Source of the DNA: Acidovorax sp. SUPP3334
Lineage (GTDB): Bacteria > Pseudomonadota > Gammaproteobacteria > Burkholderiales > Burkholderiaceae_C
DNA: 41,445 bases
Direction of reading: 5' to 3'
NCBI RefSeq assembly: GCF_030159055.1
Contig: NZ_BQXQ01000037.1
Location: 1 to 41,445, forward strand
The position numbers and the translations under genes were made by a program. A model generated the notes under the pieces. It saw only the letters and a program-made list of their open reading frames with translations. It was not told the origin of the DNA and searched no databases. Shown piece after piece: positions 6,827 through 41,358 of this stretch (its first letter is position 1; each line of letters opens with the position of its first letter).

Positions 6827-7414
6827 GTGATACCAGCTTTCAATCATTCTCACGTTTTGCCTCCTTTCGAGGGAGAGCGTTTGACCAGCGCGCACAGTTC
6901 GCCCTATGTGGTGACTACTGCAGAGTTCGTGCAGCGCTTTGCCACCAATGCGGTACGCTGCACAATCGTTGATGGGTTCATGCGCTACCGCGCCGAACTG
7001 CGCGTCCTAGGGTTTGTCCAAGGATTTCAGTGGCTCGACGGTAGCTTCGTTGAAGATGTCGAATCTCGTGAGGGGCGCGAACCTAGGGATATGGACATCG
7101 TGACTTTTGCTCATCCCCCCGCAGGTATGAGTAATGCACAGATCAGGGACATGATGCGGTCCCGCCCAGAACTCTTCGATCAAGATCAGTGCAAAGCAGT
7201 TTTCCGATGTGACACTGCACTCGTCAACCTATCCACCTCACCAGAATGGCTTGTGACGCAGACTCGGTACTGGTATGGCCTCTATTCTCATCGTCGAGGT
7301 GATGCATTGTGGAAAGGCATCTTGCAGTTGCCTTTGGACTCGAATGATCTCGAAGGGAATCAAATGCTAGCGGGACTGAATTTTGAAGGAGAGAACAATG
7401 CTGGCGCAGCTTGA
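6827..7414 (+). CDS. Predicted nucleotidyltransferase-fold protein (DUF6932-like), island gene 1
   Basis: 195 residues. The core carries the minimal polymerase-beta nucleotidyltransferase signature: G-S at residues 72-73 (WLDGSFVED) followed 15 residues later by a D-x-D (D88, D90 in PRDMDIVTF). The N-terminal part (LPPF..., then EFVQRFATNAVR) resembles DUF6932 proteins. The start is a GTG at 6827; no strong ribosome site precedes it, so the true start is uncertain by a few codons. GC and codon use are much lower than in both neighbours, indicating horizontal acquisition. It overlaps the next gene by 17 bases. The function is inferred: possible NMP transfer to a protein or RNA, perhaps in a toxin-antitoxin or defence module. 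Confidence 0.75.
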   Translation: MIPAFNHSHVLPPFEGERLTSAHSSPYVVTTAEFVQRFATNAVRCTIVDGFMRYRAELRVLGFVQGFQWLDGSFVEDVESREGREPRDMDIVTFAHPPAGMSNAQIRDMMRSRPELFDQDQCKAVFRCDTALVNLSTSPEWLVTQTRYWYGLYSHRRGDALWKGILQLPLDSNDLEGNQMLAGLNFEGENNAGAA

Positions 7415-8399
7415 AAGGCAATTCCTTCAGGCCGACCTTGCGCAAGCTCGGCAGCTACTCGTCGAAGCAGGAGCGCATGACGACCCTTTCGCAGAAAGCC
7501 AATATAGCCAGCGAGTGGCGCGACTTGAGCGGCAGTTGACCGAGCTTGCTGTACAAGCCGAAAGTGCTCCGACCGGGATTGCCTTGTTTTTTGGTGGAAG
7601 GCCGGTGATTGGATCGCATGGCATTAAGGCTGCCTTCGGAACGCAGGCAGTGGGCCAGTTTCAGAAGTTGATCAGCCAGCGTTACGCGGCAGCAGAAATG
7701 GGGCCTTTGGCGTCACGCGGGCGAGTGCCAATGAGTGAGGAAACGCAGCTTCTTGTCACTGATGTAGTTCGAGGATCTTTTGGATTTGTTCTGCAAGGGA
7801 ATCAGCCAGAAGAAAGTGACTCGACGCTGAAACAGGTAGTGGATGAGGTCGCTGATACCCTCTGTCGAATGGCCAGTCTGGACGATGCTCTGTTTGATGA
7901 AGCCTCCGCCGGGGTTGACAGTCGGCAGCTCGGCGCATTAAGAGAGTTTTTCAAACTCCTAGACGATGAAGGGGCAAGCTTGCGTGTCGTGGAGGGTGAG
8001 CGGGATTTCGAGTTAACAACGCAAGCGGTACAGCGGGCTCGCCAACGTGCCGACGCCCTTGTGATCGAAGATCGTCTTGAAACATTTGAGGGCGAAATCA
8101 TCGGATGGGCCGAATACTCCCTTCGCTTCGAAGTGCTCCTACATGCTGATAGAAACGTGATCGTCGGTTCGATGTTGCGTGAAGCAATGCAAAAGCTGCT
8201 TAACGAAGGAATTAATCCATTGCATCAGCATGTTCGCGCGAGCGTCAAGGTGCGCGAAGTTAAGCTACGCAATCGAGCTCCTCGGAAAACTTTTGTGCTG
8301 CAGTCAGCTGAGCGCATCGGAGCCCCACTAGACTGGGCGGTGAGGGCAACACAACCATCAATTCCTACGTTGTTGAACGATCACGACGCGAACTCTTAG
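7398..8399 (+). CDS. Uncharacterised partner of the nucleotidyltransferase-like protein, island gene 2
   Basis: 333-residue soluble protein with no family I can name. The first 55 residues look helical and coiled-coil-prone (LERQFLQADLAQARQLL, RVARLERQLTELAVQ). Next comes a conserved-looking core (ALFFGGRPVIGSHGIKAAF, then TDVVRGSFGFVLQG), a helical middle, and a beta-rich C-terminal half. The ATG at 7398 is preceded by a good GAAGGAGAG ribosome site located inside gene 1, so translation is probably coupled. The low GC matches gene 1. The two genes behave as one transferred module. A substrate or binding partner of the nucleotidyltransferase is a reasonable guess but is not shown by the sequence. 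Confidence 0.75.
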   Translation: MLAQLERQFLQADLAQARQLLVEAGAHDDPFAESQYSQRVARLERQLTELAVQAESAPTGIALFFGGRPVIGSHGIKAAFGTQAVGQFQKLISQRYAAAEMGPLASRGRVPMSEETQLLVTDVVRGSFGFVLQGNQPEESDSTLKQVVDEVADTLCRMASLDDALFDEASAGVDSRQLGALREFFKLLDDEGASLRVVEGERDFELTTQAVQRARQRADALVIEDRLETFEGEIIGWAEYSLRFEVLLHADRNVIVGSMLREAMQKLLNEGINPLHQHVRASVKVREVKLRNRAPRKTFVLQSAERIGAPLDWAVRATQPSIPTLLNDHDANS

Positions 8400-8487
8400 T
8401 AGATGGTCAGCGGTGCGTAGTCGCTGAACTCACTTCGTCGTTTGTATGTGACGCCTCCGCCCTGGCCAAGCCAAGGGTTGCCAAGTG

Positions 8488-8913
8488 TTAACTGGTGTGC
8501 CAGCTGGTTTGGCCGCCGGAAGGCCCCTGGTGGAACACCAGGTCGTCCACCGGCTTGCCGCCCACCAGGTGGCTTTCGATGATGCGGTCCATGTTGGCGG
8601 GGGTGACGTCGTAGTACCAGGTGCCGTCCGGCTGCACGCACATCACCGGGCCACCCTTGCAGGCGGCAAAGCAGCTCACGCGGCTGCGTTTGACGCGCAG
8701 CTCGCCGTCGTTCAGCCCGGCGGCCTTGAACTTGTCGCCCAGGCTGTCGAACAGGGCCTGGGCCTGGCCGTCTTCCGCGCAGCGCGGGCCGGTGCAGATG
8801 AGGATGTGGCGGCGGTAGGCGCCGATTTTTGGCTTGATGGCCACGCGCACCCCTTCGGGCGCTGCGGTGGCGGTGTCAGCGGCGGTGCCGGTGGTGGGGT
8901 CTTGCTGGCTCAT
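8488..8913 (-). CDS. (2Fe-2S) ferredoxin-like protein, last gene of the cobalamin operon
   Basis: 141-residue thioredoxin-like [2Fe-2S] ferredoxin. The cluster ligands are visible as C-x4-C (ICTGPRC) and C-x3-C ([10 protein letters not shown]), in the order typical of this fold. Its start overlaps the cobJ stop by 4 bases. Ferredoxins of this type often sit in cobalamin clusters and are thought to supply electrons to a corrin-ring reduction step. The C-terminal end (...GGQTSWHTS) lies exactly where GC drops into the low-GC island, so the tail may have been reshaped by that insertion. Confidence 0.88.
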
Positions 8914-9914
8914 GCCTCTTCCTCGGTGGTGGCGACGGCCTCGGTGGCCAGGGGCTGGGCCAGGGTGTCCTGAATGTAATCGGCCGGCAGGCGGTGGCGC
9001 CGGGCCAGGGCCTCGATGCTTTCGCCGGCCGCGTGGTCGAGCTGCAGATTCTCCAGCCAGCCGTTGAGGCCGGTGGAGAGCGAGCGGCCCGGGCGCTCGC
9101 CGGCCAGGGTGGTGCCGCCGCCTTCCACGTCGTACTTGTTGGCGTAGCCGCGCGGCGTGACCATCAGGCCGTGCCGCACGATGGTGTTGCTGTTGCCGAT
9201 GAGCACGGTGCTGAGCATGCCGATGTCGGCATCGCACATGGTGGCCAGCGTGGCGAACTCGATGCGCTCGCGGCGGCGGTAGGCGCTCTTGACGATGGCG
9301 ACCGGCGTGTCGGGGCTGCGGTGGCGCAGGAAGAGGCGCTGGGCTTCCTCGATCTGGCGCGTGCGGCGGCCGCTCTTGGGGTTGTAGAGCGCGACGACGA
9401 AGTCGGCCAGCGCCGCTGCGTCGAGCCGGCGCGCGATGGTGGGCCAGGGCGTGAGCAGGTCCGACAGCGAGATGGCGCAGAAGTCGTGCGTGAGCGGCGC
9501 GCCCACGCGGGCCGCGCAGGTGTTGATGGCCGAGGCGCCGGGCACGATCTCCACCTCGATGCCGCCGGGCTCGACCACGCCGTGCTCGTCGAAGGCGGGC
9601 GGCGTCCAGCCGGCCTGGAACAGCACCTCGAACGTGGGGCCGGCCATGCCGTACACGCCGGCATCGCCCGAGGAGATGAGCGCGACCTTCTTGCCCTCGC
9701 GGGCGCGGGCCAGCGACTCGATGGCGCGGTCCAGCTCTTCGGTCATCGACTTGCGGATGATCTCCTTGCCCTCGATGAGATCGGCCACGAGCTTGATGTA
9801 GGTGACGTAGCCGATGATGGTGTCGGCCTCGGCGATGGCCGCGCGCGCGCGGGCCGTCATGTGGTCGGTGCTGCCGGGGCCGATGCCCACGAGCATGATT
9901 TTTCCTGCGGACAT
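8910..9914 (-). CDS. cobJ: Precorrin-3B C17-methyltransferase
   Basis: 334-residue SAM-dependent methyltransferase of the corrin/uroporphyrinogen family. It adds the C17 methyl during ring contraction. Family motifs are the N-terminal [14 protein letters not shown] and [16 protein letters not shown] (the SAM-binding G-D-x-G-x-Y region), then [15 protein letters not shown] and [10 protein letters not shown]. The ATG at 9914 (MSAGKIML) begins the domain; a longer frame upstream lies in the antisense of cbiM. It follows cbiM by 13 bases. The last 80 residues extend past the core domain, as in CobJ/CbiH proteins with a C-terminal tail. The cofactor-free chemistry is known for the family, not shown here. 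Confidence 0.95.
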
Positions 9915-20632: not shown

Positions 20633-22108
20633 TTGCGCTCGCCCCTCGATACGCCCTTGCCCGCACCGGGCCCGTCTTCGGAACCACCGCTGGTGGTGGA
20701 CCTGGACGGCACCCTCATCCTGACGGACATGCTGCACGAATCGTCGCTGCAGCTGCTGCGGGACGGGCCGTGGCGCGTGTTCGCCATGCCCCTGTGGCTG
20801 GCGCGTGGCAAGGCAGCCCTCAAGCACGAAATCGGCCGGCGGGTGCGGATGGACGTGGCCACCCTGCCCTACAACGAGCCCTTCGTTCAGTGGCTGCGCG
20901 CCCAGCACGCGGCGGGCCGCCGCACGGTGCTGTGCACCGCCTCCGACCGCACGGTGGCGCAGGCCATCGCGGCCCATCTGGGCTGTTTCGATCAGGTGAT
21001 GGCCAGCGACGGCGCCACCAATCTCGCGGGGCCGGCCAAGGCGGCGGCGCTGGTGCAAGCCTTCGGCGAGCGCGGCTTCGACTACGCCGGCAATTCCCAG
21101 GCGGACGTTCCGGTGTGGCAGGCCGCGCGTTCGGCCATCGTGGTCAATGCCCCGGGCGGCGTCACCCGCCAGGCCGAAGCGCACGGCAACGTCGCCGGAC
21201 GCTTCGATCGTGCTCCGGCGGGCCTCAAACCCTGGCGCAAGGCGTTGCGGCTGCACCAGTGGCTCAAGAATCTGCTGCTGTTCGTGCCGCTGGTGGCCGC
21301 CCATCGCCTGGCAGACGGCGAGGCCTGGGGCAGCCTGCTGGTGGCCTTCCTGGCCTTCAGCCTGTGCGCGTCGTCGGTCTACGTGGCCAACGATCTGCTC
21401 GACCTGGAAAGCGATCGCCGGCACCCGCGCAAGCGGATGAGGCCTTTCGCCTCGGGCGCGCTGGCGGCCTGGCAGGGCGTGGCCCTGGTGCCGGTGCTCA
21501 CGGCGGCGAGCTTCGTGCTCGCGTGGCAGGTGGGCGTGGGGTTCTTCGGCTGGCTGCTGGGGTATTTCGCCATCACCTGGGCCTATTCGCTGGCGCTCAA
21601 GCGCTGGGTGCTGGTCGACTGCATCGCGCTGGCGGTGCTCTACACGCTGCGCATCGTGGCGGGCGCCTACGCCATCATGCAGCCGCTGTCGTTCTGGCTG
21701 CTGGCGTTCTCGGGCTTTCTCTTCCTGTCGCTGGCGTTCGTCAAGCGCTATGCCGAGCTGATGGTGCAACAGGCCGCAGGCAAGACGCAGGCGCACGGAC
21801 GCGGCTACCTCACGTCGGACGCGCCCATCGTTCAGAACCTGGGCATTGCCGCCGGCTACACGGCCGTGGTGGTGCTGGCGCTGTACCTGAACAGCGAATC
21901 GGTTCTGCTCATGTACCGCGCGCCCGAGATGATCTGGGCCGCCGTGCCGGTGATGGTGTTCTGGGTGAGCTGGATGTGGCTGCGCGCGGTGCGCGGCGAG
22001 ATGCATGACGACCCGCTGGTGTTCGCCTTCAAGGACCGCGCCAGCCTGGCCGCCGGCGTGCTGTTCAGCGTGGCGATGGTCGCCGCGGCGCTGGGGCTGC
22101 CTTGGTAG
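20633..22108 (+). CDS. HAD hydrolase-UbiA prenyltransferase fusion, decaprenyl-phosphate phosphoribosyltransferase-like
   Basis: 491 residues if translation starts at TTG 20633 (AAAGG precedes; an ATG at 20543 overlaps the likely -10 box). Residues 20-190 form a HAD phosphatase domain: D23-L-D-G-T (DLDGT), LCTASD, and YAGNSQADVPVW. Residues 210-491 form a UbiA-type membrane domain whose first loop has the N253-D-L-L-D-L-E-S-D motif followed by HPRKRMRPFASG, the N-D-x-x-D...D-R-x-H-P-x-K-R signature of decaprenyl-phosphate phosphoribosyltransferase (mycobacterial Rv3806c). Inferred role: transfer of phosphoribosyl from PRPP to polyprenyl phosphate, and dephosphorylation by the HAD domain. First of eight tightly linked genes. 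Confidence 0.9.
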   Translation: MRSPLDTPLPAPGPSSEPPLVVDLDGTLILTDMLHESSLQLLRDGPWRVFAMPLWLARGKAALKHEIGRRVRMDVATLPYNEPFVQWLRAQHAAGRRTVLCTASDRTVAQAIAAHLGCFDQVMASDGATNLAGPAKAAALVQAFGERGFDYAGNSQADVPVWQAARSAIVVNAPGGVTRQAEAHGNVAGRFDRAPAGLKPWRKALRLHQWLKNLLLFVPLVAAHRLADGEAWGSLLVAFLAFSLCASSVYVANDLLDLESDRRHPRKRMRPFASGALAAWQGVALVPVLTAASFVLAWQVGVGFFGWLLGYFAITWAYSLALKRWVLVDCIALAVLYTLRIVAGAYAIMQPLSFWLLAFSGFLFLSLAFVKRYAELMVQQAAGKTQAHGRGYLTSDAPIVQNLGIAAGYTAVVVLALYLNSESVLLMYRAPEMIWAAVPVMVFWVSWMWLRAVRGEMHDDPLVFAFKDRASLAAGVLFSVAMVAAALGLPW

Positions 22109-23415
22109 CCGTCCGCTCCTGGGGCCGGCTGACCGCCGATGAGCACGACGTGCGCGTGCTGGCGGAACGCCCGCTGGCCCACCTGCCGCTCGCCGCGGGC
22201 CAGCACGGGCTGGCGTTCGGCATGGGCCGAAGCTACGGCGACGTGTGCCTGAACCCGGGCGGCGCGCTGTGGTCGCTGCGCGGCCTGGACCGCTTCATCG
22301 CCTGGGACGAGGCCACCGGCGAGCTCACCTGCGAAGCGGGCATGCTGCTGCGCGACATCCAGCGCACCTTCGTGCCGCGCGGCTGGATGCTGCCCGTCAC
22401 CCCGGGCACCCAGCTGGCCACGGTGGGCGGCGCCATCGCCAACGACGTGCACGGCAAGAACCACCACGTGCACGGCTCCTTCGGCGACCATGTGCAGGAA
22501 CTGCGGCTGCTGCGCACCGACGGGCTGTCGATCCGCTGCGGCCCGCAGCTGCACGCGGACTGGTTCGCCGCCACCGTGGGGGGAATGGGCCTGACCGGCG
22601 TGATCGCCCAGGCCACGCTGCGGCTCAGGCGTGTGCCCGGCCCGTGGCTGGACACCGAAACCCTGCCCTACGGATCGCTCGACGAATTCTTCGCCCTGGC
22701 CGATGCCTCCGAGGCCGGCTGGGAGCACACCGTCTCGTGGATCGACTGCCTCTCGGGCGCGCGGGCGGGCGCCACGCGCGGCATCTTCCTGCGGGCCAAT
22801 GCCGCCCCGCCCGAATCCCAGAGCGGCGCCGCGCCGAAAGACCGCCAGCGCACCGTGCCGTTCGCGCCACCCGTCTCGCTGGTCAACCGGCTGAGCCTGC
22901 GCCCTTTCAACGCGGCGTACTACCACCTGAACCGGCGCCGCGCGGGCCGTGCCCTGCAGCACTACGAACCCTTTTCCTATCCGCTGGACAACCTGCAGGA
23001 ATGGAACCGCATCTACGGCCGCCGGGGCTTCTACCAGTACCAGTGCGTGGTGCCCCGCACGCACGGCCCCGATGCCGTGGGCGCGCTGCTGCGCGAGATC
23101 ACCGCGTCGGGACAGGGCAGCTTCCTGGGCGTGCTCAAGACCTTCGGCGACCGCGAAGCGGTGGGCCTGCTGAGCTTTGCGCAGCCGGGTGTCACGCTGG
23201 CGCTCGACTTTCCCAACCTCGGCGATCGAACGCTGCGCCTGTTCGACCGGCTCGATGCCGTGGTCGCCCAGGCCGGCGGGCGGCTGTACCCGGCCAAGGA
23301 TGCGCGCATGCCGCGCGAGCTGTTCGAGGCCGGCTACCCGAAGCTCGCCCAGTTCCTTCCGTACCGCGACCCGCACATCCGCTCGGCGATGTCGCTGCGC
23401 CTCCTGGGCGACTGA
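22102..23415 (+). CDS. dprE1: DprE1-like FAD-dependent decaprenylphosphoryl-ribose 2-oxidase
   Basis: 437 residues. The FAD-binding PCMH-type domain contains the loops GMGRSYGDVCLN (40-51) and PGTQLATVGGAIANDVHGKNHH (HGKNHH 117-122), both near-identical to mycobacterial DprE1. The C-terminal half keeps WNRIYGRRGFYQYQ, GVTLALDFP and the catalytic-lysine motif PAKDAR (K399). In M. tuberculosis the inhibitor-reactive Cys-387 lies in the GVTLALDFP-equivalent loop; here that residue is Ala-367. It oxidises the 2'-OH of polyprenylphosphoryl-ribose. The TTG at 22102 overlaps the preceding stop by seven bases; no ATG fits better. Confidence 0.92.
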   Translation: MVAVRSWGRLTADEHDVRVLAERPLAHLPLAAGQHGLAFGMGRSYGDVCLNPGGALWSLRGLDRFIAWDEATGELTCEAGMLLRDIQRTFVPRGWMLPVTPGTQLATVGGAIANDVHGKNHHVHGSFGDHVQELRLLRTDGLSIRCGPQLHADWFAATVGGMGLTGVIAQATLRLRRVPGPWLDTETLPYGSLDEFFALADASEAGWEHTVSWIDCLSGARAGATRGIFLRANAAPPESQSGAAPKDRQRTVPFAPPVSLVNRLSLRPFNAAYYHLNRRRAGRALQHYEPFSYPLDNLQEWNRIYGRRGFYQYQCVVPRTHGPDAVGALLREITASGQGSFLGVLKTFGDREAVGLLSFAQPGVTLALDFPNLGDRTLRLFDRLDAVVAQAGGRLYPAKDARMPRELFEAGYPKLAQFLPYRDPHIRSAMSLRLLGD

Positions 23416-23466
23416 CCGGTGCGCGCCTTGTCACCACAAAAACGAACGAACGATTTCACCGCCAAC

Positions 23467-24237
23467 ATGCAAAACAACCACCACAACGGATCGCAGACCA
23501 TCGCGATCGTCGGCGCCACGTCGCTGATCGCCCAGCACTGCGCACGCCAGTGGCTGCAGGCCGGCGGCATAGGGCGCATGGTGCTCATCGGCCGCGACGC
23601 GGCCCGCCTGCAGGGCGTGGCGGACGATCTGCAGGTGCGCCAGCCCCAGGCCCGCATCGAAGTGCTGGCCGGCGATGTCACGCAGGCGGCGTCCGTCGCC
23701 GCGCTGGTGCAGCATCTGGCGGCCCAGGGCGTGCCGGACGTGGTGCTCATCGCCCACGGCAGCCTGCCCGATCAATCCCAGTGCCAGAACGATCTGGCCA
23801 GTGCCGAGCAGGCCATGGCCGTCAACGGCCTGTCGCCCGTGCTGTGCGCCGAAGCCTTCGCCGGCGCGATGCTGGCGGCCGGCCACGGCACGATCGGCAT
23901 CATCGGCTCGGTGGCCGGCGACCGCGGGCGCAAATCCAACTACGTCTATGGTGCCGCCAAGGGCCTGGTGGAGCGCTATGCCGAAGGCTTGCAGCACCGC
24001 CTGGCGGGCACGGGCGTGAAGGTGGTGCTGGTCAAGCCAGGGCCGACCGACACACCGATGACGGCGCACCTCAAGGCGCGCGGCGCCAAGCTGGCCAGCG
24101 TGGAGCAAGTGGCCCAGGCCATGGTGCGCGGCATGGCCCGTGGCACGCCCGTGGTCTATGCCCCGGCGAAATGGGCGCTGATCATGGCCGTGATCCGCAA
24201 CCTGCCGCGCGCCATCTTCCACAAAATGGATATCTGA
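23467..24237 (+). CDS. dprE2: DprE2-like SDR keto-reductase
   Basis: 256-residue short-chain dehydrogenase. The cofactor loop is GATSLIA at the N-terminus, with catalytic Y-x-x-x-K (YGAAK) downstream of a serine (GSVAGD). It directly follows the DprE1-like gene. In mycobacteria DprE2 reduces the 2-keto intermediate to give decaprenylphosphoryl-arabinose. ATG at 23467 (MQNNHHNG) is preferred; an in-frame GTG at 23419 would add 16 residues. Confidence 0.88.
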   Translation: MQNNHHNGSQTIAIVGATSLIAQHCARQWLQAGGIGRMVLIGRDAARLQGVADDLQVRQPQARIEVLAGDVTQAASVAALVQHLAAQGVPDVVLIAHGSLPDQSQCQNDLASAEQAMAVNGLSPVLCAEAFAGAMLAAGHGTIGIIGSVAGDRGRKSNYVYGAAKGLVERYAEGLQHRLAGTGVKVVLVKPGPTDTPMTAHLKARGAKLASVEQVAQAMVRGMARGTPVVYAPAKWALIMAVIRNLPRAIFHKMDI

Positions 24238-24240
24238 GCC

Positions 24241-25950
24241 ATGCGGTGGACCCCTGAACGCCGCCGCCACTGGGCGGCGGTGGCCCTTGTGGGCTATGCG
24301 GCGCTGTTCGCACTGGCGACGGCCGTGGCGGCCTGGCGCACGTTCACCGCTGTCCCGATCTGGGACATGTGGGGTGCGGTGGACTTCTATGCCGACGTGC
24401 GCGACGGCGGCGGCTGGAGCGCCTGGTGGAGGCTTTTCAACGAGCACCGCCTCGTGCTGTCCAAGGCGCTGTTCTGGATGGAGTACCGCTGGTTCGGTGG
24501 TACTCAGGTCTTCCTGATCGCGGTCAACTACCTGCTGGTGGCGGGCAGCATCGCCACGTTCTGGGCCTTCCTGAAAGCGCGGCTGGGACCGATGCCCCGC
24601 GCCACCTCGGTGTCGGCCCTCGTGCTGCTCTCCGTCTGGCTGACGTCTTGGATCCAGCAGGAAAACCTGACCTGGGCTTTCCAGAGCCAGTTCTTCCTCG
24701 CCCAATGGCTGCCGCTGGCCGGGCTGTACTGCCTGTACCGCGCCACGCAGTCTCCACAGAGCCTGCGCTGGTTCATCGGCGGCTGCACGCTGGGCGTGTT
24801 GAGCATCGGCACCATGGCCAACGGCATCATGGCGCTGCCCATGATGGCGCTGTACGCCGCCGTCGCGCGCATGGGCTGGCGCCGTGTGGCGGTACTGGCG
24901 TTGCTGGCCGCGCTGGGCATCGGTGCCTACATGGCGGATTTCGTCGCGCCGACGCCCCGGCCCGGCCTGCTGGCAGTGCTCATGGGCCGGCCGCTGGGCA
25001 TGCTGCAGTACACGTTGCAATACCTGGGCAGCCCGTTCCAGCACCTGGCCCGGCAGATGGAGGCGATGTGGATCAGCCAGGCCTTCGGCGTGCTGTTCAC
25101 GGGGCTGACGCTGGCCCGGCTGGTGCCTGCGCTTCGGGCCCCGCGCGCCCATGCGCTGGAGCTGTCGCTGCTCACCTTCGTCGCCTTCGTAGCGGGCATC
25201 GCCTTCGCGACGGCCAGCGGCCGCCTGCAGTTCAGCATGGAAGGCTCGCTGTCCAGCCGCTACACCACGCCCACGATGATGGCGTGGGCCGCCCTTGGCG
25301 TGTTGTACGCACCCCGCGTGATGGCCCTGCGCGGTCTCGCCCGCGCCGGCTTTACCCTGCTGCTGGTGGCCGTGCTGGCCCAGATGCTGGCGATACAGAT
25401 GCGCGAAACCAAGCGCAACGACGTGGCCCACCTGCGCATGACCGGAGCCCTCGCGCTCGCGATGGGCGTGCATGACGAACGCCGCATCGGCATGCTGATC
25501 TGGGACCGGAACCTGGGCGAGCTCATCGTCGCCAAGGCACAGCGGCACGGCCATTCGATCTTCGGCCAGCCTCCGCTCTCCGACGCCGCCACGGCCCTGG
25601 GCTCGCACGTGGACGTGCCGCCCGCCCGCTGCACGGCCTTCGTGGACTGGGTGCAGCGCGTGCCTGGCGACGCGCGCTTCGTCTCGGTGAGCGGCGCGCT
25701 GCTGCCCGATGGCGAGGGACCGCCGCCCGAATCGGTGCGCCTCGTCGCGCCCGACGGCACCGTGGTGGGCGTGGGCGTGCCCCACCGCTGGCGCAAGCTG
25801 AGCGCGCCGGGCGGTGCCCACGCGCCCGCGCGCTACCTGACCTTCACCGCCTACCTGAAGGCGACGCCCGAGACACTGCCGGCCACCGTGACGCTGACCG
25901 CGCCCGGCACCGAGTGCTCGGTGGCCCTCAAGGTGCCGCAGCCGCAATGA
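24241..25950 (+). CDS. Polytopic membrane protein, GT-C glycosyltransferase-like
   Basis: 569 residues, about ten or eleven predicted helices in the first 400, then a soluble C-terminal domain of about 150 residues. After the first helix (12-33) the loop carries P-I-W-D-M-W (W41-D42) and the later F-N-E-H-R (E68-H69), the acidic first-loop pattern typical of GT-C polyprenyl-phosphate-sugar glycosyltransferases. No sequence family can be named with certainty. Gene spacing (3 bases after the DprE2-like gene) supports a role as the transferase that uses the lipid-linked sugar; that role is inference. Confidence 0.8.
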   Translation: MRWTPERRRHWAAVALVGYAALFALATAVAAWRTFTAVPIWDMWGAVDFYADVRDGGGWSAWWRLFNEHRLVLSKALFWMEYRWFGGTQVFLIAVNYLLVAGSIATFWAFLKARLGPMPRATSVSALVLLSVWLTSWIQQENLTWAFQSQFFLAQWLPLAGLYCLYRATQSPQSLRWFIGGCTLGVLSIGTMANGIMALPMMALYAAVARMGWRRVAVLALLAALGIGAYMADFVAPTPRPGLLAVLMGRPLGMLQYTLQYLGSPFQHLARQMEAMWISQAFGVLFTGLTLARLVPALRAPRAHALELSLLTFVAFVAGIAFATASGRLQFSMEGSLSSRYTTPTMMAWAALGVLYAPRVMALRGLARAGFTLLLVAVLAQMLAIQMRETKRNDVAHLRMTGALALAMGVHDERRIGMLIWDRNLGELIVAKAQRHGHSIFGQPPLSDAATALGSHVDVPPARCTAFVDWVQRVPGDARFVSVSGALLPDGEGPPPESVRLVAPDGTVVGVGVPHRWRKLSAPGGAHAPARYLTFTAYLKATPETLPATVTLTAPGTECSVALKVPQPQ

Positions 25951-26933
25951 GCGTGCACACCGCCTCACCAGACATCGCTGAGAAAAAGACTCCCATGAAG
26001 AACGCCAAAATCATCCTGCCGGGAGGCGCCGGCCTCGTGGGCCAGAACCTCGTGGCCCATCTGAAGCTGCACGGCTATCACAACCTGGTCGTGCTGGACA
26101 AGCATGCGAGCAACCTGGCCATCCTGCGGCAGGTGCACCCCGACATCGTGGCCGAGGACGCCGACCTGGCCGAGCCCGGCGCATGGGAGCGCCACTTCGA
26201 GGGCGCGGACGCAGTGGTCATGCTGCAGGCGCAGATCGGCGCGCCGCAGGCCGACCCGTTCGTGCGCAACAACCTCACCTCCACCGGCCGCATCCTGGCG
26301 CTGATCCAGCGCCACCGCATCGCGCACACGGTGCACATCAGCTCGTCGGTGGTGGAGTCGGTCGCGCAGGACCACTACACCGAGACCAAGCGCGCCCAGG
26401 AAAAGATGGTGCTGGACAGCGGCATTCCCTGCGTGGTGCTGCGGCCCACGCTGATGTTCGGCTGGTTCGACCGCAAGCACCTGGGCTGGCTGTCGCGCTT
26501 CATGCGCAAGGTGCCCGTGTTTCCGATTCCCGGCAGCGGCCGCTACATGCGCCAGCCGCTCTACGCGGCCGACTTTTGCCGCATCATCGTGCGCTGCATC
26601 GAGGAGCGCCGGGTGGGCGGCGTCTTCAACATCACGGGGCTGGAGAAGGTGGACTACATCGACATCATTCGCCAGATCAAGGCCGCCACGGGCGCCGGCG
26701 CCTGGATCGTGAAGATCCCCTATGGCCTCTTCTCTCTGCTGCTCAAGGTGTGGGCGCTGTTCGACAAGGACCCGCCCTTCACCGCCGACCAGCTCAAGGC
26801 GCTGGTGGCGCACGACGAGTTCGAGGTGATCGACTGGCCCGGCATCTTCGGCGTGCGCGCCACGCCCTTCGCCGAGGCCATCCACGAAACCTTCAACCAC
26901 CCGGAATACAGCCGCGTGGTGCTGGAGTTCTGA
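25947..26933 (+). CDS. NAD-dependent epimerase/dehydratase, extended SDR
   Basis: 328 residues from the ATG at 25947, whose ATGA overlaps the preceding stop; an alternative ATG at 25995 (MKNAKI) would remove 16 residues. The NAD loop is GGAGLVGQN (G-x-x-G-x-x-G) and the catalytic Y-x-x-x-K is YTETK, preceded by a serine cluster (HISSSVVES). It is an extended SDR of the nucleotide-sugar epimerase/dehydratase class. The substrate is unknown; its place in the lipid-linked-sugar operon suggests a sugar modification step. Confidence 0.88.
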
Positions 26934-28273
26934 TGAGCGCGCAAACCCCCTCTCCTTCCGAGGCCGCGGCCGCAACGCCGGGGCAGCGCATCGCCGTGCT
27001 GGGCGCCGGCCCCATGGGCCTGGCCGTGGCCTACCAGCTCGCGCGCGATGGCCACCGGCCCGTGGTTTTCGAGGCCGACGACCGCGTGGGCGGCATGACC
27101 GCGATGTTCGACTTCGACGGCCTGCCCATCGAGCGCTACTACCACTTCCATTGCACCTCCGACCACGCCTTCTTGCAGATGCTGGACGAACTCGGGCTCT
27201 CGGACAAGATGCGCTGGCGCGCAACGCGCATGGGCTACTGGTTCCAAAAGCGGCTGCAACCCTGGGGCAACCCCGTGGCCCTGCTGCGCTTTCAGGGCCT
27301 GGGCCTGGTCGCGAAATTCCGCTACGGCCTGCATGCCTTCCTCTCCACGAAGCGCACCGACTGGAAGCCGCTCGACGGCGAAGAGGCCACGGGCTGGATC
27401 CGTCGCTGGGTGGGCAAGGAAGCCTACGAAGTGCTGTGGCGCCGCCTGTTCGACTACAAGTTCTACGACCATGCCGGCAACCTGTCCGCCGCGTGGATCT
27501 GGAGCCGCATCCGCCGCATCGGCCGCTCGCGCTACAGCCTCATGCGCGAAAAGCTCGGCCATTTGGATGGCGGCTCGGTCACCTTGCTGGACGGCATGGT
27601 GGCGGACATTCGCCGCCATGGCGGCGAGATCCGCCTGTCCACGCCGGTCACGCGCGTGCGCATGGACGCCACGCGCGTGCAGGGCCTTGAAACCGCGCAG
27701 GGCTTCGAGGCCTTCGACAAGGTGGTGAGCACCATCCCCCTGCCCTACGTGCCCCGCACCATGCCCGACCTGCCGCCCACCCTGCTGGCGCAATATGCCG
27801 CGCTGCAGAACATCGCCGTGGTCTGCGTGATCGCCAAGCTGCGCCAGCCCCTGTCCGGCAATTTCTGGGTCAACGTGAACGATCCGGACATGGACATTCC
27901 CGGCCTGGTCGAATACAGCAACCTGCGGCCGCTGCAGGAGTCGGTGGTGTACGTGCCGTTCTACATGCCTGGCGAGCATCCCAAGTTCGCCGAGCCCGAC
28001 GCGGCCTTCCTCGACAAGGTGCGCCGCTACCTGAAGACCATCAACCCGAAGCTGCAGGACAGCGACTTCCTGGCCCTGCGCGCCAGCCGCTACCGCTACG
28101 CGCAGCCCATCTGCCCGCCCAACTACCTGGACAGCCTGCCGCCCGTGCAGCTGCCGGTGCGTGGCCTGTGGGTGGCCGACACGTCGTACTACTACCCCGA
28201 GGACCGCGGCATCTCCGAGAGCATCGGCTTCGGGCGCCAGATGGCCGCGCAGGCCGCTGCGGCGCGGGTCTAG
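26933..28273 (+). CDS. FAD-dependent oxidoreductase, protoporphyrinogen-oxidase/UDP-galactopyranose-mutase-like
   Basis: 446 residues. The dinucleotide fold is [17 protein letters not shown] with the later E-A-D-D-R-V-G-G (FAD-binding GG motif). The C-terminal part carries [13 protein letters not shown] and the FAD-clamping [16 protein letters not shown]. This architecture is shared by amine oxidases and UDP-galactopyranose mutases. The ATG at 26933 overlaps the preceding stop (TGATG). In this operon a ring-contraction or oxidation of a carbohydrate is possible, but nothing in the sequence proves it. Confidence 0.88.
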
Positions 28274-28282
28274 GGGCCGCTC

Positions 28283-28693
28283 ATGCTGGCGCAGTTCCGA
28301 TCCCGGCAGTTCGTGGCCTTTCTGGTGACCGGCGGCGTGGCCGCGCTCGCCAACTTCATCGCGCGCATCGTGCTCAACCAGTGGATGCCGTTTTCCTACG
28401 CCGTGGTGCTGGCCTACGGCGTGGGCATGGTCACGGCCTTTTTGCTGGCCCGCGCCTTCGTGTTCCAGGGCAGCCAGCAGCCGGTGCACAAATCCGCCGG
28501 GTTCTTCGTGCTGGTGAACCTGGTGGCCGTGGCGCAGACCTGGGCGGTGAGCCTGCTGCTGGCACGCCAGGTGCTGCCCGCGCTGGGCGTGACGGCCTTC
28601 GTGCCCGAGATCGCCCATGCCGTGGGCGTGGCCGTGCCGGTGTTCACCAGCTACCTGGGCCACAAGCGCTGGTCCTTCGCCGACCGCGCATGA
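28283..28693 (+). CDS. GtrA-family flippase-like protein
   Basis: 136 residues, four helices, the length and layout of GtrA. Conserved features are FVAFLVTGGVAALANFI near the start and the closing SYLGHKRWSF motif. GtrA proteins flip polyprenyl-phosphate-linked sugars, including decaprenylphosphoryl-arabinose in mycobacteria (Rv3789). Its place here fits export of the lipid-linked sugar to the periplasmic face. It begins nine bases after the oxidoreductase gene. Confidence 0.88.
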   Translation: MLAQFRSRQFVAFLVTGGVAALANFIARIVLNQWMPFSYAVVLAYGVGMVTAFLLARAFVFQGSQQPVHKSAGFFVLVNLVAVAQTWAVSLLLARQVLPALGVTAFVPEIAHAVGVAVPVFTSYLGHKRWSFADRA

Positions 28694-29622
28694 AGCCGGG
28701 CCACGCCGTCGCTGCGGCCGGGGCCTGCACGGCGGCCTACGTGGTGGCCCTGGCCTGGGCCGATGCGCGCAACCAGGTCTTCGCGCAGTTGCCGCAGGTG
28801 CTCGCCTGGATGCCGTCCATGGCGGGCCTCGCCTTCGCTTCGTACCTGCTGCGCTACCTGCGATGGCGCTGGCTGCTGTCGCGTGCGGGGCACTCCGTGC
28901 CCTGGGGGCCGGGCTTTCTCGGGTACCTGTCGGGCTTTGCCTTCACCGCCACCCCCGGCAAGGTCGGCGAACTGGTGCGCGTGCGCTATTTCTCGCGCCA
29001 TGGCGTGCCGACGGCGCGCACCGTCTCGGCCTTCGTGTACGAGCGCGCGTTCGACCTGCTGTGCGTGGTGCTGCTGGCAGCGCTGGCCATCCCCGCACTG
29101 CCGCTGTTCGCCGTGCTGGTAGCCTTCGTGGCGGGCATGATCGGCGCCGTCGTACTGGTAGCGGCACGGCCGGCGTGGCTGCTGCGCAGCGCCGCCTGCC
29201 TGCGCCGCTGCGGCTGGCCGCGCGTGTCGCGCGCGGTTAGGGCCTTGGCCATGGGGCTGGCGGGCTGCAGGGCGTGGCTGCATCCGCTGGACCTGGGCCT
29301 GTCCCTCGGCCTGGGGCTGATCGCCTGGGGCGTGGTGGCGCTTTCGTTCGCCTGGCTGCTGCGCGGGCTGGGCATCGATCTGCCCTGGCGCGATGCGGTC
29401 TCCCTCTACCCCACGGCCATGCTGGCCGGCGCCGCGTCCATGCTGCCGGCCGGCATCGGCACCACCGAGGCCACCCTGGTCGCCCTGCTGGCGCTGCAGG
29501 CCGTGCCGATCGGCCTGGGCACGCTGGCCGCCGTGGGCATTCGCGTGGCCACGCTGTGGTTCGCGGTGCTGTGCGGCTTCGCGGCGATCGCGGTGTTGGA
29601 GCACCGGCGCGGGCCGGCCTGA
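28690..29622 (+). CDS. UPF0104 / lysylphosphatidylglycerol-synthase-transmembrane-region-like protein
   Basis: 310 residues with about eight helices. Family landmarks are the loop LLRYLRWRWLLSRAG, GFAFTATPGKVGELVRVRYFSRHGVP (the P-G-K-x-G-E motif) and a C-terminal MLPAGIGTTEATLVALL (the P-x-G-x-G-x-x-E motif). Such proteins appear to move lipids or lipid-linked sugars. The ATG at 28690 overlaps the GtrA-like stop by four bases. Last gene of the operon. Confidence 0.88.
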   Translation: MKPGHAVAAAGACTAAYVVALAWADARNQVFAQLPQVLAWMPSMAGLAFASYLLRYLRWRWLLSRAGHSVPWGPGFLGYLSGFAFTATPGKVGELVRVRYFSRHGVPTARTVSAFVYERAFDLLCVVLLAALAIPALPLFAVLVAFVAGMIGAVVLVAARPAWLLRSAACLRRCGWPRVSRAVRALAMGLAGCRAWLHPLDLGLSLGLGLIAWGVVALSFAWLLRGLGIDLPWRDAVSLYPTAMLAGAASMLPAGIGTTEATLVALLALQAVPIGLGTLAAVGIRVATLWFAVLCGFAAIAVLEHRRGPA

Positions 29623-29648: not shown

Positions 29649-31568
29649 TCACCCGACAGGGGCCTCCACGGCGGCTTGCACGGGCTTCAACGCCGCCTTC
29701 TGCGCCTGCAGCACGTCGGCCGTGATCGCCGCCTTGTGGCGGTGTGCGGTAGCGGCCTGCGACAGGATCTTCCACAGCGCATCGTTGCCGGGCGACATGT
29801 GGTCCAGGATGCCGCTGGCGATCAGGTCGGCCGGATTGCGCAGGCCCACGGCCTTCCGCTCCAGCGCCTGGTTGGATGGCGGGCTGCCGTCGCTGGCCAG
29901 GGCGGTCGCTGTCGATGCATCGAAAAACTCAGGATGGAACTGCAGGCCGATCAGCGGCGCCCGCGGCTGGGACGACTCCACCGCCATGACGGCGCGCCAG
30001 GCGGTGTCGCCCGTTTCGGAGGGGATCGTGCGGCGCAGGGCGGTGCGCAGGTCCGGCCGCGCCTGTGGATCGTCGATCACCGCCTGGTGGTGATAGACGG
30101 CCGCGCGGATGTCCTGCAGCGCGGTGCCGAAGACACCGATCTCGGTCTGCGCGGCCACCGGAGCGCTGGCCCCCTGCGACGCGGGGGCCCGGTCGTCGTC
30201 CAGGGTCCGGACGCCCACCTGGCTCCCCACATGCTGCTGCAGCGCCGCGCCGAAAAAGACGTTGGTCATCTGAAAGCCGCGGCAGATCGCCATCAGGGGC
30301 ACGCCCCGGTGAAAGCACTGGTGCAGCAGGCCCAGTTCGAGCACGGACCGCCGGTAGTCGCCGCTCCAGTCGGTCTGCGGCGCGGCCGGCTGGGCATAAA
30401 GGTGCGGCGAAATGTCTTCGCCACCGGGCAGGACCACGGAATCGACATGGCGCGCGAGGACCTCGGCCTTCGCCAGAATCTGCGCGATCTTGGGCAGCGA
30501 CTCAGGGTTCGCGAGGGCGTCGCTCACCAGGCGCTGGGCCAGCGGCCTGCCGCCGGACGGCTGCGCGGCCAGGCGATCGAGATGGGCATCGACCTCTGCG
30601 TCCACTGCCGCCGCCTGCAGCGAGGCCTCTCGCATCTCGACCCGCAGCGGCAGGGTGCCGGCCACGGCAGCGATCTTGGCGCCCACGCGCGGCACCGTGA
30701 TGCCGCGCACATCGTGCGAGACCAGGGTGGCCGTGGTGGGCCGCGTGAGGCGGGCCGTCTTCTGCGACGCGGCATCGATGCGAAACCGTGCCTGGGTGCC
30801 CAGGAACACCGTGTCGGTCAGATCGGAGGCCTCGATGCGCGCATCCCCCACCGACGCGCAGAGGAAATGCGTTCCCGGCATCTTCACGCCCTTGAACACC
30901 GAGCCGTCCTGCAGGCGCGCGTCTTCGAAACTGCTGCCGTGCAGATGGCTGGCCTCGAAGCGGACACCGCTCAAGGTCGCATTGAGGAACATCGCCTCCT
31001 GAAAGCGGCAGCCGGTGAACTGGCTGTCGCGCAACTGGGCATGGGCCAGCGAAACCTCGTTGAACTGGCAGCCCTGGAAAGCGCTGCCTTCGATGCGCGT
31101 GTCCGCCAGCGAACTGCGGTCGAAGCGGCAGTCCTCGAAGGCCACGCCGGACAGATCCCAGCCGCGCAGCGATGGGCTGCCTTCCAGCAGTTCGGCGCCC
31201 CTGAGCCGGGGCGCATGGCCCGCAGCGGCCAGTGCCGCGGCCAGCGAGGGCCGGCCTGCATTCGCTGCTGCCGGGTGATCGATCGCCGCCTGCAGCAATT
31301 GGCGCAGCAGCGCCGTGTCGCCCGGCCCGCCGGGGCGGGCATTGCCGCCGGCATGGGCGTGACCGCCCGGCGCGAGCAGCGCCGTCAGCGCGGTGCGCAG
31401 CCGCGCCGTTTCTGCGCCGAAAGGACGGGGCTCGCGCGCCGGCAGGTCCGGATGGCCGGAGGGCCCCGGGGACGCCGGCCCGCTTTTGCTGGCCGCCGCT
31501 GCGCCGTCGCCGCTGGTGGGTTCGGATTGCCGATGCTGGAGCTCGGCAGCGTTCAATGACACTTTCAT
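29649..31568 (-). CDS. Pentapeptide-repeat / peptidase C26 (glutamine-amidotransferase-like) fusion, candidate effector
   Basis: 639 residues; start ATG at 31568 behind a GGGAGG ribosome site. The first about 50 residues are Ser/Pro/Gln-rich and disordered. Residues 120-256 are pentapeptide repeats (LSGVAFEDCRF, LRDSQFTGCRF, LHGSSFEDARL). Residues 375-550 form a class-I glutamine-amidotransferase fold of the gamma-glutamyl-GABA hydrolase type: VVLPGGEDISPHLY, nucleophile C429 in AICRGFQ, and H545-P-E547 in QFHPEF. The catalytic triad looks intact. The fusion and the disordered N-terminus without a Sec signal suggest a host-directed, possibly type III-secreted protein; no PIP-box (TTCGB-N15-TTCGB) was seen upstream. 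It stands between two operons. Confidence 0.85.
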   Translation of the reverse strand: MKVSLNAAELQHRQSEPTSGDGAAAASKSGPASPGPSGHPDLPAREPRPFGAETARLRTALTALLAPGGHAHAGGNARPGGPGDTALLRQLLQAAIDHPAAANAGRPSLAAALAAAGHAPRLRGAELLEGSPSLRGWDLSGVAFEDCRFDRSSLADTRIEGSAFQGCQFNEVSLAHAQLRDSQFTGCRFQEAMFLNATLSGVRFEASHLHGSSFEDARLQDGSVFKGVKMPGTHFLCASVGDARIEASDLTDTVFLGTQARFRIDAASQKTARLTRPTTATLVSHDVRGITVPRVGAKIAAVAGTLPLRVEMREASLQAAAVDAEVDAHLDRLAAQPSGGRPLAQRLVSDALANPESLPKIAQILAKAEVLARHVDSVVLPGGEDISPHLYAQPAAPQTDWSGDYRRSVLELGLLHQCFHRGVPLMAICRGFQMTNVFFGAALQQHVGSQVGVRTLDDDRAPASQGASAPVAAQTEIGVFGTALQDIRAAVYHHQAVIDDPQARPDLRTALRRTIPSETGDTAWRAVMAVESSQPRAPLIGLQFHPEFFDASTATALASDGSPPSNQALERKAVGLRNPADLIASGILDHMSPGNDALWKILSQAATAHRHKAAITADVLQAQKAALKPVQAAVEAPVG

Positions 31569-31640
31569 GGTGGGCCTCCCTGTTCGCCGGCCTTCCTGAG
31601 CAGCACAGCGCCGCGAGTGAAGCGATGCCGACGGGGGGTG

Positions 31641-31669
31641 ATCTTTGAACACGGCGATGGCAGGGTCAA
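31641..31669 (-). promoter_or_regulatory. Sigma-70-like promoter of the pentapeptide/C26 gene
   Basis: On the minus strand TTGACC (complement of 31664-31669), 17 bases, then AAAGAT (complement of 31641-31646). It lies about 70 bases before the start codon at 31568. A match to the -35/-10 pattern, not confirmed. Confidence 0.5.
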
Positions 31670-31781
31670 CGCATGTTTTCGCATAAGGCCCAACGCAAAG
31701 CGCTGCAGCGGCGGCACGAGCCCGACCGCCACGCCAGCCCATCGGCCCACCAGACCACCGCCCCACTGACCCGCTGGCGCG

Positions 31782-38843: not shown

Positions 38844-39075
38844 GTGTAGACTGCGACCGACTTGCAGCCCGTCGCGAAGGACGAGACGGTCGAAGGAGAT
38901 ACCTTCCACCGCCACAAAGGGCGGCACGGCGGCTCAAGGTCGCTAGGGCGACACGCCACCTTGCGGGCTGGACGCCCCCTCCTCATCCACCCCAATACGC
39001 GCCCCAGCCCTCCGATCTTCCCTGTCGGCAAGGCCCAACGGTCGGGCACCCTGCGAGCGGAACGCCGACCGAGTT

Positions 39076-39088
39076 GCCTTGCAGGCCC
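39076..39088. repeat. Direct repeat, left flank of the restriction-modification island
   Basis: GCCTTGCAGGCCC, found exactly again at 41432-41444. It lies 81 bases before the methyltransferase start. Candidate insertion footprint. Confidence 0.6.
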
Positions 39089-39169
39089 CTCCATCGGCTC
39101 GGGCTGGACGCCTTGCCTCACGGCTTCGCGGCGGCCCCTGCGACTCGCCCCTGCCGGTAAACTGGCTAT

Positions 39170-40486
39170 ATGCACAGCCCACAAGCGCAATCTGACGACG
39201 TTCTCTCGTTCTTCTCCGGTGCCGGAGGCTTTTCGTATGGATTTGCATTAGCTGGGTTGAAGCCGCTTTGTGGCGCAGAGATTGACCAAGATGCGTGCGC
39301 AACCTATGAACGAAACGTTGGTAGCGACTGCCATAACGTTGACCTTTCGTCCATAGACCCTGAATACTTCCGAAAAATAACCGGTGGGCGTGCCCCCTTT
39401 GCCGTTATCGGCGGGCCTCCTTGTCAAGGGTTTAGCACGGCCGGGTCGCGCGACTCAAGCGACCCTCGCAATCGCCTGATATTCAACTATTTGAACATCG
39501 TTGACCGGCTACGTCCGCGCTGGTTCATATTCGAGAATGTTGAAGGCCTGCTTACGTCCGGACATGGCGCTGCTGTTTCTTCTCTTGTCAAAGAGTTTCT
39601 GCGGATTGGGTATTCGGTTCGGGTTCAGAAGGTCAATCTTGCTGCCTACGGTGTGCCTCAAACGCGAAAGCGCGTTTTGATAATCGGGAATTGCTTGGGG
39701 ATTGACTTTGAGTTCCCGGCGGAAACGCAGTCGTATGCCTCCGGGAAGTCAAAGAAGCATAGTGGTAAGCCTTTTGCTCCTACGCTTGACGAGGCGCTGG
39801 CAGGTTTGCCCATGGCAGGCAAATCTCGGCAGGAGAAACTAAACTATTCGTCCGAAGTTCCAGTCAATGAATTCGACGAGAGAATGAGGTTGGGTAATGA
39901 GGTTGGTCTTTTGACGGAGCATTTTCAGAATGTGGATGTCAAGGATTCCGAAATGTATTCGCTTCTTAGGCCGGGTCAGACGATGAAGGACCTGCCTCAA
40001 GAACATTGGCATGAGAGCTTTAAACGTCGTGCCTTCCGACGTGTGCAAGACGGGACCCCAACCGAGAAACGGGGTGGCGCTCCATCGGGGGTAAAGCGCT
40101 TGACTGGTGACCTGCAGAGCCTAACTATCACCGGAGCTGCGTCCCGAGAATTTATTCATCCACATGAGAATAGGCCATTGACTATTCGCGAGTGCGCAAG
40201 AATTCAAACTTTCCCGGATGCATATTCATTTTCGGGCAACGCTGCGAGTGTCATTCAACAGATTGGAAATGCTGTTCCACCGTTGGCAGCATCTGTCTTT
40301 GCCAAGCACCTGAAGGCGCTCGACGGGCAATTTGGCTCGGGGGTCGGCTTGCCGCGTAATGGTGATGCGCGACTTCTTGGATACATGCTTACGGAAGCAT
40401 CCGGTATGAGTGAGGCACTTCAGAAGACCGAGTCGCTTCTGCGGGGTATTCAACAACAACAACAACTTGAATTCAGCGAACTATGA
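39170..40486 (+). CDS. DNA cytosine-5 methyltransferase
   Basis: 438 residues of the C5-methyltransferase family. Motif I is [12 protein letters not shown], motif [10 protein letters not shown] (catalytic C85), motif VI FENV (122), motif [14 protein letters not shown], and motif X IGNAVPP near residue 365. The variable target-recognition region (about 195-310) sets the site, which cannot be read here. Residues near the end are five glutamines from a CAA repeat. Low GC and AT-rich codon use mark it as imported. The start lacks a clear ribosome site. It overlaps the next gene by four bases. Confidence 0.95.
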
Positions 40487-41358
40487 GTGAAACCCCATTA
40501 CGACTTTCTGCGGAAGAGTCGAAGTTTCTGACCAAAGTGACGACACTAGGTTCTGCTACAGCGCTACCGGTGGTGATGAGTCAAGGTGAATTTGCAAAAC
40601 TCATCGGCGTGGTCTACTACGATACGGAACGTTTCCCGGAGCTTGAGAAGACGCACCCTGGCCTGGCTGCAAAGATAAATCCCGGGGTTGATTACTATTG
40701 CGTTCCAGATGGTTGGTTTGAAGCACCGATTCCATTGGAGGAGCTTGAGCATGTGTCGTTGATGCGCCAAGCCGCAATTGATATACCGGACTTTGTTACT
40801 TATCTTAGGTGTTTATCGGAGTTGCACAAACGTCGGACGAAATACTCCAAGATTTTGTCCGCTCAACCAATGCCGACAATGGTTCAGGTGTCTCCCCGTT
40901 CACTCATGGAGTATGGGCATGTCGAACCTGAAGCCCTTGCCTCATGGTTGACCTGGCGAAAATTCTTCTATGACCTAGATAACAGGTCGGCGCAGGAGAC
41001 AGGCTACCTTTTCGAGCCTATTCTTGCAGCCGCTATAGGCGGGGAGCCCAAGGGCTCCCGTTCCAAGGTCGTCAAACGCACCGACGACCCCTCGAAGGGA
41101 CGTCAGGTGGACTGCTGGAAGGCGGTGCCTGGGAGGCCACCGTTGGCTTATGAATTTAAACTACGAGTGACCATTGCGGCTAGTGGACAAGGGCGAATTG
41201 GCGAGGAGCATCAGTTTGCTGTTGACTGCAAGACCTCAGGCGCCGTCCCCGTTCTAGTGATATTGGACCCAACTCCAAATCCGACCATGGCCGGCCTGAA
41301 AGCTGTGTATGAGGCTAATGGGAGCCTCTCACAACCCATGTTTGACGAATCCCAATAG
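40483..41358 (+). CDS. Putative type II restriction endonuclease, PD-(D/E)XK fold
   Basis: 291 residues. A candidate catalytic set is E178 (GYLFEPI), D210 (RQVDCW) and E224-F-K226 (AYEFKLRV), in the spacing of PD-(D/E)XK nucleases. The start ATG overlaps the methyltransferase stop (ATGA), as in type II systems. I do not recognise the specific family; the endonuclease role is inferred from the motif and the partner. Low GC matches the methyltransferase. After the stop (41359-41445) no gene is seen. Confidence 0.8.

Follow-up and report, generated by a model that had tools for sequence, protein, structure and literature searches.

What does an operon that recalls the mycobacterial arabinose-lipid pathway make in a plant-associated Gram-negative bacterium? 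The question is raised by a 41,445-nucleotide stretch of Acidovorax sp. SUPP3334 (hereafter the window; part of contig C37, NZ_BQXQ01000037.1, of a 4.98-Mb draft genome), in which eight plus-strand genes lie tightly packed at 20633-29622. Our answer, to which we give a probability of about 0.55, is that these genes build a lipid-linked pentofuranose as a donor and then transfer the sugar, and that genes 5 and 6 alter the sugar further. These two genes, encoding a short-chain dehydrogenase/reductase (SDR) and a flavoprotein, turned out to be the key and most interesting genes of the operon. O-antigens and pilin glycans are shaped by pentofuranose side chains, and the enzymes known to make the lipid donors of these chains are few. 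The original prediction, made from the letters of this DNA, had described an eight-gene operon with four overlaps and gaps of at most 51 bases, and we find it so, on the plus strand, with the following genes:

20633..22108, plus strand: gene 1, HAD phosphatase-UbiA fusion, predicted polyprenyl-phosphate phosphoribosyltransferase and 5'-phosphatase (Pfam, NCBIfam, PDB 8j8j, DLDGT; start TTG 20633 or ATG 20543)
22102..23415, plus strand: gene 2, DprE1-like flavin adenine dinucleotide (FAD) oxidase (NF053785, Mycobacterium tuberculosis (Mtb) DprE1 chains, HGKNHH, Lys of LYxAKD)
23419..24237, plus strand: gene 3, DprE2-like SDR reductase (NF005489, NF053786, YxxxK; start GTG 23419 or ATG 23467)
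24241..25950, plus strand: gene 4, predicted glycosyltransferase of the GT-C type with a beta-sandwich domain at its C-terminus (residues about 465-564)
25947..26933, plus strand: gene 5, extended SDR of the NAD-dependent epimerase/dehydratase type, partner of gene 6 (Pfam Epimerase, SSS, YxxxK)
26930..28273, plus strand: gene 6, flavoprotein with an amine-oxidase/phytoene-desaturase fold (PRK07233 family) that marks the six-gene cassette
28283..28693, plus strand: gene 7, GtrA-type predicted lipid-sugar flippase (GtrA_DPMS_TM)
28690..29622, plus strand: gene 8, LPG_synthase_TM (UPF0104-type) membrane protein, accessory (Pfam)

At the starts used, the overlaps fall at 22102/22108, 25947/25950, 26930/26933, and 28690/28693, and the remaining gaps measure 3-9 bases, or 51 if gene 3 begins at its ATG. 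The start codons at 20633 (TTG), 23419 (GTG), 25947 (ATG), and 26930 (TTG) are uncertain, and many homologues align only from residues further in. Among the loci we fetched, the nearest named relative of the operon is Paracidovorax valerianellae (L073), with protein identities of 95-97% for genes 1-3, 5, and 6 and 90% for gene 4, which agrees with a comamonad betaproteobacterium as host. The parts named in the prediction (a HAD-UbiA fusion with the Rv3806c-type motif, DprE1-like, DprE2-like, GT-C-like, GtrA, and UPF0104 proteins) are borne out by Pfam and NCBIfam, PDB 8j8j, Mtb DprE1, and the gene 4 model; all eight genes had been counted and only six described, with 25947-26933 and 26930-28273 left unnamed.

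Genes 1-3 and the predicted pentofuranose donor

Gene 1 scores 85.1 bits against Pfam UbiA, 46.8 bits against HAD (residues 21-161), and 687.6 bits against NCBIfam PRK08238. It aligns with the mycobacterial enzyme (PDB 8j8j) at E 1.1e-26, and the NDxxDxxxD motif (NDLLDLESD here) and KRYAEL are kept in the alignment. The N/D/D/D motif of loop II, which in polyprenyl-phosphate phosphoribose synthase (PPPRS) comprises N247, D248, D251, and D255 (Kelly et al., PMC11127046), is present, as are the R/E of loop IV, the nucleophilic Asp of the HAD domain, and a DLDGT motif. A HAD phosphatase-UbiA arrangement makes farnesyl-phosphate ribofuranose from phosphoribosyl pyrophosphate (Kelly et al., PMC11127046). 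Gene 2 aligns over residues 30-422 with the Mtb DprE1 chains (E about 1e-70), keeps HGKNHH and the Lys of LYxAKD, and has Ala at the position of the Mtb Cys. We take HGKNHH to be the FAD site, the Lys to correspond to the catalytic K418 of Mtb DprE1, and the Mtb Cys to be C387. The best match of gene 3, whose sequence contains YxxxK, is NF005489 (PRK07102), at 245 bits with a cut-off of 267. Against the curated equivalogs, gene 2 scores 330.8 bits (NF053785, DprE1; cut-off 500 bits) and gene 3 scores 163.1 bits (NF053786, DprE2; cut-off 250 bits). By sequence, the first steps look like DprE1/DprE2 work, although both proteins lie below the thresholds for equivalog membership. The DprE1 cut-off was reached by none of the 349 sampled genomes of the phylum and by one of 14 control genomes, Corynebacterium glutamicum. 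In the original prediction, DprE1- and UbiA-like proteins outside the mycobacterial clades were to count against the pathway; by score this holds in one sense for the DprE1-like protein, which does not refute the function, because the Pseudomonas homologues are reported to make D-arabinofuranose (D-Araf). Homology and motifs support a PPPRS/DprE1/DprE2-type route in this betaproteobacterium, leading from polyprenyl-phosphate ribose to an arabino pentofuranose, in which genes 2 and 3 would oxidize and then reduce C2 to give the arabino form.

With the mycobacterial decaprenylphosphoryl-arabinose pathway (Rv3806c, DprE1, DprE2) the operon shares the predicted chemistry and the motifs of the first steps, whereas its fused HAD phosphatase, its DprE1 and DprE2 scores below the equivalog cut-offs, and its extra SDR/flavoprotein pair set it apart. 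Homologues of Rv3806c, Rv3790, and Rv3791 are reportedly present in the Pseudomonas PA7/Pa5196 cluster, according to a 2011 abstract. A mycobacteria-only pathway is ruled out: the DprE1 family occurs in 52 of the 349 phylum genomes (E <= 1e-50), and 71 plasmid records match gene 2. Polyprenyl-phosphate pentofuranose pathways are published in Gram-negatives (PMC11127046, PMC12369383). The Gram-negative host, which had been presented as notable, is therefore no surprise. The arabino pathway outside mycobacteria was already known, and the cassette of six genes described below, which adds a second flavin/SDR pair, is a variant of the published three-component pentofuranose systems.

Like the operon, the D-Araf pilin system of Pseudomonas paraeruginosa PA7/Pa5196 (PSPA7_6245-6251, TfpW) is a Gram-negative D-Araf biosynthesis cluster (PMC12369383); it differs in its UbiA, which lacks a HAD-type PRP domain as far as PMC11127046 describes it, and in its acceptor, a pilin. 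The three-component systems of Citrobacter youngae O1 and O2 (ORF12-ORF15; GT136; PMC11127046) resemble the operon in the HAD-UbiA fusion, the GT-C protein with an extra beta-rich domain, the flippase, and the extracytoplasmic glycosylation. The biochemistry of the fusion, the SDR epimerase, and the GT-C is published for Citrobacter, and the SDR epimerase step of C. youngae O2 can be likened to the operon's SDR (PMC11127046). There the flippase is the MATE/EmrE-like ORF14 (PMC11127046); here it is GtrA, and the operon also has DprE1 and DprE2 and the further flavoprotein/SDR pair. The same paper states DprE1/DprE2 homologues for Araf glycans and notes that some systems, in Xanthomonas and Bacillus, have several candidate epimerases or GT-Cs, and neither 'FAD' nor 'oxidoreductase' occurs in its main text (PMC11127046). 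We found no description of the gene 5/6 pair with DprE1 in the titles and abstracts that our searches of open-licence literature returned, and the pair may be drawn in the supplement of PMC11127046 or in the 2011 Harvey paper.

A six-gene cassette with a second flavin/SDR pair

Gene 5 scores 72.7 bits against Pfam Epimerase, and its SSS and YxxxK are invariant in 32 aligned rows. It was rejected as a nucleoside diphosphate (NDP)-sugar or hopanoid epimerase, to which it has weak matches only (at best dTDP_gluc_dehyt, 44.1 bits, cut-off 365.1; HpnA 37.9 bits). When the genome collection was scanned with an alignment of 11 gene 6 homologues, 453 relatives were obtained, and the best 80, which are top scorers and not a random sample, were fetched with their surroundings. 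Genes 1, 2, 3, 5, and 6 all lie within the fetched stretch in 69 of the 80 loci, and with GtrA in 68; because so many loci of other genomes hold the same five genes, the grouping in the operon is not chance. Counted singly (bits >= 45), matches were found to gene 1 in 69 loci, gene 2 in 71, gene 3 in 73, gene 5 in 80, gene 6 in 80, GtrA in 78, and gene 8 in 26, and several of the missing matches fall at contig ends. The gene 5 match adjoins gene 6 in every locus (in L114 only the end of gene 5 is present, where the contig stops). The gene order is 1-2-3-5-6-7 or, in L207 and L209, 1-5-6-7-2-3, with the gene set unchanged, and the slot of the large membrane protein (glycosyltransferase) varies from locus to locus. 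Remote homologues of the SDR (37%) and the flavoprotein (23%) adjoin DprE1/DprE2/UbiA in L064. Outside the eight Paracidovorax/Acidovorax loci, the median identities to the window are 58% for gene 1, 62% for gene 2, 56% for gene 3, 68% for gene 5, and 75% for gene 6, making the pair the best conserved part of the set, with gene 6 having also served as the query.

Plasmids carry the same arrangement. Gene 6 (E <= 1e-40) was found in eight plasmid records, in seven of which DprE1 lies about 3 kb away, start to start; the eighth (Embleya, 29%) is not among the 40 listed of the 71 DprE1 plasmid records, which match gene 2 at E <= 1e-5 (64 of them over at least 80% of gene 2). UbiA-DprE1-DprE2-SDR-flavoprotein-GtrA stand in a row on four annotated plasmids, one of them an Agrobacterium plasmid typed as conjugative. 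UbiA, DprE1, DprE2, SDR, flavoprotein, and GtrA together make up a cassette of six genes that occurs in beta-, gamma-, and alphaproteobacteria as well as on plasmids. Separately, an unannotated faecal phage record (MT837543.1) contains a UbiA-like stretch with 33% identity over 46% of gene 1.

The pair also follows DprE1 in samples drawn by taxonomy. Gene 6 (E <= 1e-80) was found in eight of the 349 phylum genomes, a count which, with that of DprE1, comes from two draws of equal size whose handles match where shown. DprE1 is present in 8/8 gene 6-positive genomes versus 44/341 of the others (Fisher p 1.5e-7), and in 6/6 after removal of the window's own genus (p 6.8e-6), p values that are too small because the genomes are related. 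A draw of 321 genomes from the class gave gene 6 (E <= 1e-60) in 11, and nine of the ten other than the window's genome have DprE1, the tenth having a 31% homologue. Of 150 genomes drawn from the family, 16 have DprE1 (E <= 1e-80) and seven have gene 6 (E <= 1e-40); DprE1 is present in six of these seven, and the seventh (G118) has a 34% homologue. Leaving out the window, four of the 15 family loci with DprE1 have genes 5 and 6 and 11 have neither; two of these 11 are on contigs of 6 kb or less, and the genome of another, G056, carries a 50% homologue of gene 6 at a different place. In that genome we also noticed a DprE1-like gene split into two adjacent pieces (G056:C1:4271246-4272507), possibly broken or a sequencing error.

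In a DprE1 tree made by a quick method (124 rows, no actinobacterial row), each row received a flavoprotein label, plus for 78 rows and minus for 46. Minus means that the fetched stretch holds no gene 6 homologue, and at least rows L153, L154, L155, L157, L158, L160, and L187 among the minus rows are from genomes that have one, some of these rows being duplicates of one gene. The fewest label changes are 14, of which six are forced by starred branches, and the pair has therefore joined, or been lost from, several DprE1 lineages. Co-occurrence, the shuffled gene order, and the plasmid runs rule out genes 5 and 6 as chance neighbours. The linkage of the pair to the rest, like the families of genes 1-3 and 7 and the GT-C fold of gene 4, is supported by homology, motifs, or models, and a conserved pair of redox enzymes linked to DprE1/DprE2 hints at another lipid-linked sugar, or at a change of the carrier, of which we found no description in the literature searched.

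What genes 5 and 6 may do to the donor

Genes 5 and 6 would constitute a second flavin/SDR pair that acts after or beside DprE1/DprE2 and changes the lipid-linked sugar further, most simply via a second oxidation-reduction, to give a pentofuranose other than plain D-arabinose. We infer every reaction in Acidovorax sp. SUPP3334, most of all the one proposed for genes 5 and 6, together with the final sugar and the acceptor. The conserved extra enzyme pair suggests that the final sugar is not simply arabinose. Of the earlier proposal of an arabinose-lipid route, homology and motifs uphold a polyprenyl-phosphate pentofuranose made by a PPPRS/DprE1/DprE2-type route, a flippase family, and a GT-C fold; as a prediction of plain D-arabinofuranose the proposal is incomplete because of the SDR/flavoprotein pair, which it had missed.

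Several observations weigh against a further change of the sugar. Most DprE1-positive genomes of the phylum draw (44/52) lack gene 6, so the pair is optional, and plain D-Araf systems have been described in print with no mention of a gene 5/6 pair. Gene 6 homologues without gene 5 nearby were also found, in L208 (50%), L066 (50%), L065 (33%), and L210 (31%). Six genomes have a fetched locus without DprE1; four carry DprE1 elsewhere, and in the other two, Massilia brevitalea (L096) and a Desulfobulbaceae metagenome-assembled genome (L114), no DprE1 or UbiA was found at E <= 1e-20, in genomes that may be incomplete. The SDR-flavoprotein-GtrA trio of L096 (11763-18061) lies beside an NDP-sugar dehydratase, an epimerase, a GT2, a nucleotidyltransferase, and a GtrII-type protein. 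Finally, the closest fold to gene 6 in structural alignments is an isoprenoid desaturase, not a sugar enzyme.

The missing gene 6 in those 44 genomes and the pair without DprE1 in M. brevitalea would fit a plain D-Araf donor, as in P. paraeruginosa or the Araf systems of Kelly et al., with genes 5 and 6 serving a separate sugar or carrier upkeep and the transferred pentose unaltered; the UbiA, DprE1, and DprE2 homologues are indeed reported as D-Araf enzymes (PMC11127046, PMC12369383). However, the strong linkage of the pair to DprE1, the unbroken six-gene runs, and the highest conservation within the cassette falling on the pair argue otherwise, and we consider this explanation rather unlikely.

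The fold of gene 6 bears on two further alternatives. It is shared with the superfamily of plant-type phytoene desaturase, protoporphyrinogen oxidase, amine oxidase, and UDP-galactopyranose mutase (UGM), at 13-21% identity among the structural alignments listed, and the gene context differs. Genes 5 and 6 might accordingly act on the donor's polyprenyl chain, for instance by saturating or oxidizing an isoprene unit in a dolichol-like manner, and leave the sugar as it is. But similarity of fold does not give the substrate, the many invariant charged and polar residues of gene 6 do not suggest a pure hydrocarbon substrate (a weak, qualitative argument), and known GtrA/GT-C glucosylation systems, as far as PMC11127046 describes them, need no such enzymes; chain modification seems improbable to us. 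Alternatively, gene 6 could be a UGM-like ring isomerase that converts the lipid-linked pentose from furanose to pyranose or back, which the shared superfamily would allow and which we hold to be highly improbable, the structural alignments disfavouring a UGM identity.

If genes 5 and 6 do alter the sugar, as we prefer, the boldest candidate for the final sugar is D-lyxofuranose. The two flavin/SDR pairs would act in succession, with DprE1/DprE2 inverting C2 and genes 6/5 inverting C3, to give polyprenyl-phosphoryl D-lyxofuranose or some other pentofuranose altered twice. The sugar would spread through Proteobacteria on a mobile cassette of six genes whose GT-C enzymes are interchangeable; as a whole, this proposal is speculative and quite unlikely. 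A 2024 report stated that no solved carbohydrate structure contains D-lyxofuranose (Lyxf), and a published remark that Lyxf is possibly unknown since two inversions are needed becomes directly testable with this gene set.

Transfer, acceptor, and surroundings

Gene 7 (GtrA_DPMS_TM, 50.9 bits) would flip the product across the membrane, and gene 4 would transfer the sugar, beyond the inner membrane, to an acceptor that is probably a polysaccharide of the cell surface. The gene 4 protein (569 residues) is without a match in Pfam or NCBIfam at E <= 0.01; in its predicted model, which shows a GT-C fold, an acidic residue follows the first transmembrane helix. The invariant residues D42, H69, and R340-Y341 resemble D31, H106, and R349-Y350 named for C. 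youngae ORF12 (PMC11127046), a likeness that serves as a lead only. Gene 8 (LPG_synthase_TM, 141.9 bits) is probably an accessory membrane protein. In two methanotroph loci of the cassette (L133 and L135, 11281-12351), the GtrA flippase is fused to an S-adenosylmethionine-dependent methyltransferase.

We scanned 80 open reading frames (ORFs) from the flanks of related cassettes, taken from the 129 that have homologues in one or more other loci; the Paracidovorax/Acidovorax loci were excluded. Sugar-nucleotide dehydratases/epimerases (8) and GT2 (8) are the most frequent families, followed by GT1, acyltransferase, ABC transporter, and electron transfer flavoprotein (4 each), RmlD (3), Wzt_C (2), and Bac_transf (2), and the 25 of 57 families listed include no pilin family. 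Because of these flanking families, the sequences favour a polysaccharide acceptor in the relatives.

In the window, the neighbours of the operon include ParA, ParB, and a tetrapyrrole methylase. Convergent with the operon is a gene at 29649-31766 (minus strand) for a 705-residue protein with pentapeptide repeats and a C26/class I glutamine amidotransferase-like domain. A C-5 cytosine DNA methylase is encoded at 39170-40486 (plus strand), where the G+C content is 0.542 over 39001-40500 versus 0.59-0.74 elsewhere, and the 291-residue protein that follows has no Pfam match at E <= 1e-4; this stretch looks acquired. The G+C content also falls, to 0.59-0.60, over 6001-9000.

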